Source: Paraescarpia echinospica
Lineage: Eukaryota > Annelida > Polychaeta > Sabellida > Siboglinidae
Assembly: GCA_020002185.1 (NCBI GenBank)
Contig: CM034534.1
Location: 13,546,534-13,610,533, forward strand
Length of the DNA stretch: 64,000 nt
Direction of reading: 5' to 3'
The translations under genes and the position numbers were made by a program. Below the pieces are notes generated by a model that did no database searches, was not told where the DNA came from, and was given only the letters and a program-made list of their open reading frames with translations. Of the stretch, positions 19,530 to 23,323 are shown in pieces. Position 1 is the first letter of the stretch. Each line of letters opens with the position of its first letter.

Positions 19530-20430
19530 GTAAGTAGTTCCTTAATCCATGCACTTCACTTACGTCACAGCTGAATTACCATAATAGAGATACAAGACAA
19601 GGAATCTATATATAATTATATTCACGTTAGTTTCATTCTGAAATAGTCCATCTTTTTACTTGAGTAAATCAGCATGCCCCATGAACTATATATAACTTTT
19701 CTCTAAATCCATATACATTTCTTACACAATATGCAATTTTAAGATAACACGGTACAAAAGATTTAAAAAGTATATCCGCGTGTCAAACGCTTATTATTCC
19801 GTGGGCCAGACATGGCGAGCGACAATTTTGCAAAAGCTTAATATATCGTACAGAATATCCAAAGACAACGTGAAATACACGGTAACAAGTGTGATCAAAT
19901 AAGTCAATGTCATTCATGTTCTACGCACTATTTCTTAAACACGGTTAAAATGATAGTTTAACTCAGAATGCAACTGTAAGACGGTAACTTTGGATCATTG
20001 AAAGTGCATCTCCTCCGAGGCGCCCGTGTCGTCCACGTGCCTGTTTCTATATGTTCATTCGCTTGCAATGCTTTGAAAGATGAGTTTCTCCTACGCGAGA
20101 GACTGAACGTTGATCAAGTCTCCAACTCTCTTGGCGCCAATATAAATGAATTTAAGATCAGAGTACTGTAATGGTTCAGAATTGTGCACTTGGTCCGTTG
20201 CTCCATGGTTGGGCGTAAGCTAGTATTAATTATTATAGATGTCGTGAAATTGTCACAAAAACATTTAACGTATAAAGTTCACACAGAAACACGTATAAGA
20301 GAGGATGACCGATATTGGACCAGTGTGAATATTGGACCACCGCGATTTATCAGCTTTGCGACGATACACCAGCTAATGGCGTCAACCAGCGTATTTGCGG
20401 CAGAACAAGTTATCGATTGGCGAAGTCAAA

Positions 20431-21602
20431 ATGGCGGAGAGTGCGCGCAAACAAAAACGGTGAGGAAATTTCGTTTTTTCACTCCGCCCTCTTGTTGTAA
20501 TTGTATCGCAATTTCAAGTGTGTCACGCTCGGTAATTATTTATACTGTATCAACTGGATTTGCTTGTCGGGTGCCTGGAGGTCCTTCCTAATCATAGTAA
20601 AGTTCAGAAAATTTCACTCCAGCTGACACAGGAGAAAGACATTTTCGTCGTGTTACCGATATTGGACCCGGAGGGGATATATATTGGATTGGTGGTTCAA
20701 TATATATCACAGGCGGTCCAATATAGATTCCGGCGCTTATGAACAGGAATGCTGTTAAATCATAATCTATATACTACAACGAATCCGTCAATCGTAAACT
20801 ATTTCAATCTATTTTATTTTAATGTAGACTATGGCTCATCTTACCTCAAATTTACCATTCTACAATATTATACTTCATGTTTTTCAAAACTCACACACGC
20901 ACGCACACGTGCGCGCATACACGCCTACACGCCCGTCCGCTCATCTGCCCGCCCAGCCCCGTCCAGTCAGACTGATCCTGCCATGACAGACTTCCAATCT
21001 TTGATGCATTGTTTTGTCTTTTGTGCTTTAGGGACACATATGGCAGATGGACTGGAGACGATTTGGACCGCGCCTTGACTGCTCTCCAAAACGGAGATGC
21101 ATGCTTAAATGCCAGTTTGAGGCCGCATGAGCTTGAGTTTGAGGCAGCATTGGTCAAGTACGGAGTCTATGTTGATTGGCCTAAGCAGAACCGATCTGAT
21201 GGAGTTGGTCTACCAACTGGCCGACGTCAACGGAATCGACGGTTCAAACATGCTAAACAGTCGGCAAGTACCATGTGGTACCGAAAATTCATGAAACGTC
21301 ATCCCGAACTTAGCTTGCGAAAAGCTGAGGCCACATCACTTGCCAAAGCAAAATACTTTAACCGAATTAATGTTGGGGATTTTTTTCTCTCGAGACTGGT
21401 GGATACACATAACCCGAACGACCTGCACATATCTACAACGTTGATGAATTACACAAGAAATTTGGAGGCTATCGACTTGGCCCGAGAAAACGACATCATC
21501 CTGTTTTCGCTCCCTCCGCACACCACTCATCGTCTCCAGCCACTTGATCGCACATTCTACAAGTCGCTCATGGTCAACTGCGACCGTGCATGCGACAAAT
21601 GA
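20431..21602 (+). pseudogene. Pogo-family transposase, two exons, internally deleted
   Basis: Exon 1 (20431-20459) starts MAESARKQK and ends at gtgagg. Exon 2 starts at 21032 after a gctttag acceptor, and the split Arg codon gives KRDTYGRWTGDDLDRAL, the classic start of the pogo/CENP-B helix-turn-helix region. WYRKFMKRHPELSLRK and ATSLAKAKYFNRINV are the second DNA-binding helix. Then the frame jumps from about 21440 to NLEAIDLARENDIILF and LPPHTTHRLQPLD, the end of the DDE domain. The first catalytic Asp region and most of the core are absent, so it cannot catalyse transposition. Further transposase-like sequence (FRCSGIWFCDRYVFTDEDYA, 21700-21770) follows after a stop. Confidence 0.88.
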
Positions 21603-21774
21603 TCGGGAACTGAGAAGACAACTGTGACGGTGGATGTCATTGCAAGGCTTTTCGGCGAGGCATACGTAGGCTCTGCAAAAATGTAAACAGCCATCAATGG
21701 CTTTCGCTGCTCCGGTATTTGGTTTTGTGACCGCTATGTTTTCACAGACGAGGACTATGCAATGACAGCGCGGT

Positions 21775-21925
21775 TTGGCGATCAACCTGCTCAAGCACCC
21801 GGCGATCCACCTGCGCAAGCACCCGACGATCAACCTGCACAAGCTCCGGCGATGAACCTGCGCAAGCACTCGGCGATCAACCTGCGGAAGCACTCGACGA
21901 TCAACCTGCGCAATAAACCGGCGAT
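21775..21925 (+). repeat. 24-bp tandem repeat inside the pogo element
   Basis: Six units of the type GATCAACCTGCGCAAGCACC, encoding DQPAQAPG-like octapeptides in the transposase tail frame. It links the transposase C-terminus to the OTU region. Confidence 0.85.
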
Positions 21926-21937
21926 CAAGCAAGCTCG

Positions 21938-22805
21938 GTGATAATTACATGTGCGGACGGAAAGTGCTTTTTTCGGTCTGTGATCATTAGCTTAGATATT
22001 ACACTGCAAACCGCAACCCGTGACCATTATGGCAATCTAACGCACATCATGTCCCGAATAGTCGAGACCAATGAGGCAGACCGTCTGCGAGCCAAAGTGG
22101 TACGTCGTATGTGTGAACATTTTGAAGATTACAGGCATATCGACAAACATGCCACAAACGCAGACCTTCCCGAGCACAAACACTACGGCTCAATCGAGGA
22201 GAGGACGGAGGCAATGGCGAATCAAACAGAGATGGTTGGCGAAATTGAGATCATTGCTACAATGGAATCTCTGCAGAGGACGATCGAAGTTTTCGTTGGC
22301 ACCTCAAAGATGGTGTATGGGAGGGAATTCAGTGCTACCAAACCGCCCATAAGACTCCAATTCCTCGCTGCATGGCGTAAATGATGCAGGCCACTGTAAC
22401 TGCTTAATACTACGAAACACCTTCATAACTCCACAAATCCTATCACCCGTCATGAATTTCAACCGCCAACAACGGGGACTGAATACAAGAACAGAGATAC
22501 TGACGTCCAGCCCGTATAGACGAAGGTTATCGTGGACGACGTCGTCTCAACCGCGAGCAAAGAAGACAAAACTGAGCAACAAACCAAGAGTTACACGACA
22601 ATCCAAAGTGGAAATGCTAGCAGGACCCAAAATGTCGGCGACAAAAACTGGGAAATCTTGTTTCTGTATTCTCTGTGAAGAGGACCGAGTGGGGGACATG
22701 GTCCGGTGTGTGAACTGTGGGACATGGATTCATGCGACCTGTGCGGGGGACATCCTCCGAACCACCAATGTGATCTGTGTTGACCACAGGCAATCCGCCA
22801 GTTAG
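21938..22805 (+). pseudogene. OTU-type cysteine protease plus PHD finger, encoded by the pogo element (frameshifted)
   Basis: The first part, to 22384, has the OTU catalytic Cys motif ADGKCFFRSV, then RAKVVRRMCEHFEDY and VGEIEIIATMESL, in OTU family order. Its frame ends at a stop, but the +1 frame immediately after reads DAGHCNCL, the expected catalytic His motif. That frame stays open into a C-terminal PHD finger: CFCILCEED, MVRCVNCGTWIHATC, then CVDH (22660-22795), a C4HC3 pattern. So one OTU-PHD protein was split by a single frameshift between about 22352 and 22383. OTU proteases remove ubiquitin; PHD fingers usually bind histone tails. The start codon is uncertain; an upstream join to the transposase frame is possible. 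Confidence 0.75.
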
Positions 22806-23323
22806 CACCTATATAGCGTGTACTGTCCAACCCATAGGGAATGGACGAATTATCAGTGTTTCTATAAAAGTCTGAACAATCTATCTTGATGTGTGCTATA
22901 TGTTGTCATACAATGACCGTTGGTCCAACATTGATCCCGGGATGGTCCATTATACAGAACCGTGACACACATATTGGACCGATGTGACCTTTTCTTGTTC
23001 TTAGGTCTGATCAGAAACGCCCGAACGTAAATCACTTTGGTGTGTCATGTGGACGCCTTTGGTGACTACCTTTAGTTTATAATAGTTTCCACCTAAATCT
23101 CTCAATCCGCCGTGGTGTAATGGATCAAGATGCTTAGGTGGTCCAATATCGGTCATCCTCCCCTAAAGTTTACAGAATCACGAGAAACGATGGTGAATTC
23201 TTTAATAATAGCCTATGTAGCTATATAGTGCGAACAAATGCATTTCTACGAAAGGAATTCACATAAGACAACATTATGCTAGTAGGCATCGAACCTTAGA
23301 AAACAAACACAAACAATAACATA

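Follow-up and report, generated by a model that had tools for sequence, protein, structure and literature searches.

A decayed pogo-type transposon of Paraescarpia echinospica and its relatives that join a transposase to an OTU domain

A stretch of 64,000 nucleotides from the annelid Paraescarpia echinospica (assembly GCA_020002185.1, contig CM034534.1, positions 13,546,534 to 13,610,533 of the forward strand), hereafter the window, contains at positions 20298-23163 a pogo-type DNA transposon in which the remains of a transposase are followed by an OTU cysteine-protease domain and a PHD-like zinc finger. This arrangement raises the question of whether the OTU domain belongs to the transposon and, if so, what it might do there. 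The original prediction, made from the letters of the DNA, had proposed that the element edits ubiquitin on host repair or silencing proteins and reads chromatin. The reading that we favour, and regard as rather probable, is that of a decayed, non-autonomous copy from a lineage of the pogo superfamily that placed an OTU domain inside its transposase, in a single frame running from a helix-turn-helix (HTH) region through the DDE domain, a linker, the OTU domain and an LTSSPYK motif to a PHD finger. As a less certain part of this reading, the OTU domain may serve for local deubiquitination.

The borders of the element are those first proposed, 25-bp inverted termini flanked by TA. The two arms of the terminal inverted repeat (TIR) agree at 23 of 25 positions, with two differences, and TA stands directly outside each of them. 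When up to two mismatches are allowed, the 19-bp core GGATGACCGATATTGGACC has just two occurrences in the 64-kb window, one at each end of the element, against a mean of 0.00 in 100 shuffles. The features of the element, with the evidence for each, are the following.

20296..20297, no strand: left TA flank, the target-site dinucleotide (sequence)
20298..20322, plus strand: left TIR, 25 bp, AGAGAGGATGACCGATATTGGACCA (comparison of inverted arms; like ends elsewhere in the genome)
20649..20731, no strand: further copies of the TIR core, ATATTGGACC, lying subterminally near the left end, some direct and some inverted (repeat search)
21075..21413, plus strand: what is left of the HTH region and of the beginning of the DDE domain, about 30 residues being lost and the frame scrambled relative to the related protein P0001 (P0001 residues 1-150; HTH_Tnp_Tc5 E 0.027; HTH and DDE profile matches in L020, the window locus)
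21440..21455, no strand: breakpoint at which about 330 nt have been lost internally, and with them the second catalytic Asp (LDGH) (comparison with P0001 and DNA search of the genome)
21447..21776, plus strand: end of the DDE domain and GFRxxGIW region, with in-frame stops at 21600 and 21684 (comparison with P0001)
21777..21928, plus strand: linker formed by a coding minisatellite, 6.4 copies of a 24-bp unit that encodes the 8 residues GDQPAQAP; its frame shifts near 21848 and meets a stop at 21914 (repeat analysis and comparison with P0001)
21935..22367, plus strand: OTU domain, Cys part, ADGKCFFRS ... GEIEI (PF02338, E 1.6e-6)
22368..22409, plus strand: His part of the OTU domain, DAGHCN, moved to another frame by a frameshift near 22368 (in P0001 and P0002 it follows the Cys part without a break)
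22500..22520, plus strand: pogo-tail motif LTSSPYR, LTSSPYK in many relatives (sequence and alignment)
22656..22793, plus strand: PHD-like zinc finger, C4HC2H in the window copy (PF00628, E 4.1e-4, below cut-off; PHD profile from the alignment A1, described below)
23139..23163, minus strand: right TIR, 25 bp, GGGGAGGATGACCGATATTGGACCA (comparison of inverted arms)
23164..23165, no strand: right TA flank (sequence)

The window copy is dead, decayed and non-autonomous. Compared with P0001, a close relative, it has three in-frame stops (21600, 21684 and 21914) and two frameshifts (near 21848 and 22368), and P0001 residues 151-272, equivalent to 366 nt, are matched by only 33 nt, with the break at about 21447. 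In the DNA search of the genome, position 1153 of the element is bridged by the window's own alignment alone, several others stopping at 1152 or starting at 1154-1155. Internal losses account for the length of 2.87 kb. Another OTU element of the genome, L041, has both ends recognisable (356 and 4531), which by our own reading makes it about 4.18 kb long; its transposase is likewise interrupted. Both OTU motifs recognised at the outset, that of the catalytic Cys and that of the catalytic His, are kept in the window copy. Their placement in two successive frames is due to the frameshift near 22368, that is, to decay, and the two parts lie in one frame in relatives.

The identity of the domains was assessed with Pfam profiles. 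In the window, the OTU profile PF02338 scores 29.1 bits against a cut-off of 23.3 (E 1.6e-6), and DDE_1 (E 0.016) and HTH_Tnp_Tc5 (E 0.027) stay under their cut-offs in this broken copy. In P0001, DDE_1, OTU and HTH_Tnp_Tc5 each exceed their cut-off, and DDE_1 does so as well in P0002, P0016, P0126 and P0127. Among the 12 long protein matches aligned as A1, DDE_1 is matched in all 12, HTH_Tnp_Tc5 in seven and HTH_psq in seven. The family has the traits of the pogo superfamily, namely DDE_1, an HTH of the Psq/CENPB/Tc5 type and TIRs with a TA target site, in keeping with the pogo transposase first proposed.

Whether the OTU domain is part of the same protein is answered by uninterrupted relatives. 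A protein search with pieces of the window gave 205 matches at E<=0.001, the best 120 of which were taken, and a search with A1 gave 789 matches at E<=1e-20 among 7989 candidates scored, the best 120 of these 789 being taken. All counts of proteins given below refer to the 217 distinct proteins among the matches listed. By a profile made in the analysis, an OTU domain, whole or partial, is present in 36 of the 217 and not detectable in the other 181, some of which are fragments. The order in the protein is HTH, DDE, repetitive linker, OTU, LTSSPYK and PHD. P0005, P0012 and others show the whole order from DDE to finger in a single frame, and P0002, which starts inside the DDE domain, holds the end of this domain, the OTU domain, LTASPYK and the finger minus its last ligand in one frame. 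Some of the protein clusters have many members, as expected for transposons (P0019 has 40, P0128 30 and P0127 22).

The tail of these proteins is not peculiar to the OTU lineage. In 12 examples, relatives lacking OTU run from DDE through a linker and LTSSPYK or a similar motif to PHD (P0203 stops before the finger). With loose patterns, the motif and the finger were found in 14 and 15, respectively, of the 16 OTU proteins with a length of 740 aa or above, in 23 and 20 of all 36 OTU proteins including fragments, and in 91 and 123 of the 144 OTU-less proteins longer than 550 aa. Since the OTU-less relatives keep the LTSSPYK-PHD tail, the OTU domain sits ahead of a tail common to OTU-less pogo proteins, and a PHD-type finger at the end of pogo-like proteins is as familiar as had been stated. 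LTSSPYK itself (22500-22520 in the window, residues 727-733 in P0005) is a short motif that stands between the OTU domain, or the linker, and PHD, and is common to pogo proteins with and without OTU. As a separate observation, the linker between DDE and OTU is a coding tandem repeat whose unit differs among the window (21777-21928), P0004, P0006, P0007, P0012 and P0020, and this repetitive tether looks as if it had evolved repeatedly.

The arrangement also recurs in the genome, which comprises 1.08 Gb. A DNA search with the element returned 41 matching stretches from 15 scored candidates, and nine related places (L011-L019) were retrieved from it. Judged by protein pieces, eight of the nine, all but L014, have the OTU and/or tail part; HTH or DDE parts are present in L011-L015, and transposase and OTU occur together in L011, L012, L013 and L015. 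L014 is a left-hand fragment without OTU and without everything to the right of it, the right TIR included. Ends like those of the window element are also found at L011, L014, L015 (right), L016 and L017. TA stands directly outside six of the nine other ends examined, being absent at L019, at the left of L015 and at the left of L012, the last having no recognisable TIR. L012 is also adjoined, at 4623-5000 on the minus strand, by a second pogo DDE some 47-50% identical to the search pieces.

A protein search with the window OTU (150 of 298 candidate places scored) gave places most of which are 35-46% identical, indicating a large set of diverged families. The 20 best are L020-L039, where L020 is the window and L021, L022 and L035 are the same places as L015, L018 and L011. 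A pogo DDE lies upstream on the same strand in 19 of the 20, the exception being L022, and together with the Pfam score this establishes the OTU domain as genuine and as part of the element. Fourteen of the 20 have a PHD match farther downstream on that strand, and a miss does not mean absence from the element, the loci ending about 1.5 kb past the OTU match. Several of the 20 bear another TIR of the same style, TA followed by GGGGAAGTGCACCGATATTGAACC, with TA missing at L024, L027 and L032. A host OTU gene or a single-copy domesticated gene was considered and rejected for the OTU-pogo family, which is multicopy and has TIRs.

Three of these loci show a further peculiarity. In L025 (3055-3261, minus strand), and also in L026 and L036, a pogo-type SPYK tail with a PHD match lies on the opposite strand, less than 1 kb downstream from the PHD that belongs to the OTU element. 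The frame was read in L025 and the profile matches were seen at each of the three loci, as though a composite unit had formed from two pogo elements; no inverted repeat accounting for the opposite-strand PHD match was found near L025.

To place the OTU-bearing proteins among their relatives, a quick DDE tree was built with 27 of them and 75 of 171 OTU-less proteins (every second one, first 75). The OTU label changes only four times on this tree, all four forced by starred branches, against about 24 changes for shuffled labels, and because of this strong clustering the OTU-less proteins count as other lineages. Two OTU-less rows within the larger OTU group, P0062 (346 aa) and P0083 (424 aa), are too short to include the domain. 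The original prediction held that full-length relatives lacking the OTU-PHD region would point to a chance insertion. OTU-less proteins do exist (181 of 217, some of them fragments), yet they fall into other lineages on the DDE tree, and the sole OTU-less copy fetched from the genome, L014, is truncated. The other outcome named there as adverse, the lack of any OTU profile match, did not occur, PF02338 passing its cut-off in the window. The best DDE tree has two OTU groups of five and 22 rows, the unity of the larger one hanging on weakly supported forks, so that it is drawn as clades of seven and 17 rows at an open fork; it is safe to say that the OTU-bearing proteins are spread over at least two DDE clades.

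The tree of the OTU domain itself (24 rows) scatters the group of five, and enforcing its unity makes the tree worse (approximately unbiased test, AU p 0.040). The group was defined on the DDE tree before this test, and the p value is borderline, with most forks of the OTU tree weak and its branches long. Since there are at least two separated OTU clades on the DDE tree, the smaller of which is broken up on the OTU tree, the two trees together give a hint that OTU domains may have been swapped between lineages. The OTU domain evolves faster than DDE, the median end branch being 0.64 against 0.33. A region search with the OTU of P0012 alone, aimed at an outgroup of Ginger, Helitron or cellular OTU domains, returned three proteins, all with a pogo DDE.

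Ten OTU matches carry a species name, and all ten are from Gastropoda, of three subclasses. Eight are among the 36 (P0015, P0016, P0020, P0036, P0058, with a partial OTU match, P0126, P0127 and P0135) and two more (P0218 and P0219, with Pfam OTU and DDE_1) came from the P0012 region search. The hosts are snails and limpets: Nucella lapillus, Batillaria attramentaria, Patella caerulea, Babylonia areolata, Biomphalaria glabrata and Littorina saxatilis. The named OTU-less matches include insects, Hydra, Helobdella, Clavelina and Liolophura. A gastropod distribution of OTU-pogo may be taken as a lead, most listed proteins being nameless and searches seeded with the element favouring near relatives. 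With distinctly less than even confidence, we suggest that the OTU domain may be a cassette gained or exchanged more than once by gastropod pogo transposons, which would make ubiquitin editing a recurrent, selected part of cut-and-paste transposition.

We then asked whether the domain could be an enzyme. The catalytic Cys is present in 33 of 33 and the His in 31 of 32 covered rows, Asp stands at Cys-3 in 32 of 33, and GE-x-EI is nearly invariant. The position His+2 is variable (D 17, E 7, N 5, Q 1, S 1, K 1; n=32). The model of P0005 combines a mariner-like DDE fold, closest to Mos1 and Metnase, and an OTU-deubiquitinase fold in one protein, with low-confidence linkers on both sides of the OTU domain (390-536 and 696-764). 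The model of P0016 (group I) is poor outside OTU (mean predicted local distance difference test score, pLDDT, 51), and only its OTU was used. A PDB search with the OTU sequence of the window gave only two weak matches, to Vps45 (E 0.75-0.77), and one with the profile A2 led to Otu2, OTUD3 and OTUD5. The stand-alone host enzymes OTUD3, OTUD1 and OTUD5 (DUBA) resemble the pogo OTU in predicted fold and in the signature D-G-x-C ... G-H-Y, with 18 to 21% of the residues identical where the two align. By predicted fold and by residues, the OTU-pogo protein would hold two enzymes in one chain; that its OTU is an active deubiquitinase working locally we rate at slightly under an even chance.

Under the reading that we favour, the tethered OTU would strip ubiquitin, or a ubiquitin-like protein, near the transposase-DNA complex, its substrates being the transposase itself and those repair or chromatin proteins that carry ubiquitin and assemble at the ends of the transposon. 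This removal could give a longer-lived transposase-DNA complex or tune repair, and the PHD finger may help to keep the complex on chromatin. The pogo transposase binds PCNA; if this binding holds, ubiquitin on PCNA would be a natural substrate of the OTU domain.

Several observations weigh against this reading. The C4HC3 PHD finger first proposed is present as a PHD-like finger, its ligands reading CILC..CVNC..HATC..CVDH with His in place of the last Cys, and its profile match in the window, 20.8 bits (E 4.1e-4), is under the cut-off of 24. All eight C4HC3 ligands are invariant across the 12 members of A1, only two of which are matched by the Pfam PHD at E<=0.001. In P0058 Arg replaces the catalytic His, and in P0028 Gly replaces the Asp before the Cys. 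An uninterrupted frame from HTH to PHD was not seen in the genome: with L040 excluded, the longest open frame at the OTU places that were scored (150 of 298 candidates) has 599 aa; the 1100-aa open frame of L040, apparently a long fusion, was rejected, being mostly a run of N. Finally, the median pairwise ratio of nonsynonymous to synonymous substitution (dN/dS) is 0.48 for OTU (18 loci; 110 of 153 pairs, dS 0.05-1.2), 0.41 both for the DDE part (nine loci; 33 of 36 pairs) and for the tail (five loci; six of 10 pairs), the pairs being non-independent and mostly of dead copies, with the closest ones between 0 and 1. Within the genome, the constraint on OTU is not obviously weaker than that on the transposase, and we read no more than this from dN/dS.

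Among the alternatives, the one nearest to the original prediction is chromatin editing, in which the PHD finger would pick a nucleosome state and the OTU domain remove ubiquitin from histones or silencing complexes at donor or target sites, allowing escape from silencing or integration into chosen chromatin. Among the 16 OTU proteins with a length of 740 aa or above, 15 combine the OTU domain with the finger in a single chain, which speaks for chromatin editing, but the tail is independent of OTU, as the finger in 123 of 144 OTU-less proteins indicates, and we consider this alternative rather unlikely. The freedom of the residue at His+2 and the faster evolution of OTU than of DDE would suit a pseudo-enzyme, whose OTU fold is retained only as a ubiquitin-binding or scaffolding module; the near-constancy of Cys, His, Asp at Cys-3 and GE-x-EI argues against this, and makes it improbable in our view. 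Very improbable is a processing protease that cleaves its own chain into separate transposase and PHD parts. The two long, low-confidence linkers flanking OTU would offer room for such cleavage, but known OTU domains cleave isopeptide bonds of the ubiquitin type, and the seven families that a Pfam scan of A1 detected (E<=0.001) do not include a ubiquitin-like domain. A chance nested insertion, in which a pogo copy received an OTU-PHD piece of a host gene or of another transposon, could explain the different frames of OTU and transposase in the window but is refuted by the uninterrupted single-frame relatives in several species (P0005, P0012 and others), as well as by the same order at 19 of 20 loci and the spread over at least two DDE clades, and we reject it.

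Elsewhere in the window, a frame of 358 codons with five C2H2 zinc fingers (25460-26536, plus strand) starts 2.3 kb past the right TIR and, as we presume, resembles the eye-development factor Glass. At 42421-44711 (plus strand), an endonuclease and reverse transcriptase like those of non-LTR (long terminal repeat) retrotransposons extend over two frames, and a run of N at about 50.5-51.5 kb, either an assembly gap or a stretch withheld from the sequence, gives rise to spurious open frames.

The pogo superfamily of IS630-Tc1-mariner transposons is described as including Passer, Tigger, pogoR, Lemi, Mover and Fot (PMC7386202). The window element shares with it a Psq or Tc5-type HTH, DDE_1, TIRs and TA flanks, and a PHD-type tail occurs in many of our matches; relative to the superfamily as set out in that paper, it has in addition an OTU domain, placed after the DDE linker and before the tail. 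A term search of the main text of three pogo papers (PMC7386202, PMC9219625 and PMC8472432) found neither OTU nor PHD, and the literature searched, by titles and the beginnings of abstracts, gave no description of OTU in a pogo element; an earlier one may exist in subscription papers or in Repbase. The closest precedent is Ginger1, a DNA transposon whose transposase has an OTU or a Ulp1 protease domain at its C terminus, Ulp1 occurring with PHD in one family; none of the families in the table rows examined has OTU and PHD together (PMC2836005). Ginger1 differs in its transposase of the Gypsy-integrase type, with a zinc finger and GPY/F, and belongs to another superfamily (PMC2836005), whereas OTU-pogo is of the DDE_1/HTH_Tnp_Tc5 type. 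Its authors suggested that the proteases are active in transposition and may activate repair factors during or after it (PMC2836005). Helentrons also bear an OTU domain, with functional residues reported as conserved, but they are rolling-circle elements with Rep/helicase, and their OTU is an additional open reading frame rather than a domain of a transposase (PMC4067079). The principle of joining a transposase to an OTU domain is already known from Ginger1; what appears to be new is a pogo lineage, found in multiple species, with a transposase-OTU-PHD protein.

OTU proteases are now found in three kinds of transposons, Ginger1, Helentrons and a pogo lineage. A mariner-like pogo transposase that has OTU in its own chain lends itself well to testing the role of the protease in transposition, and, as the PHD-type tail is also present in OTU-less relatives, natural proteins with and without OTU can be compared.

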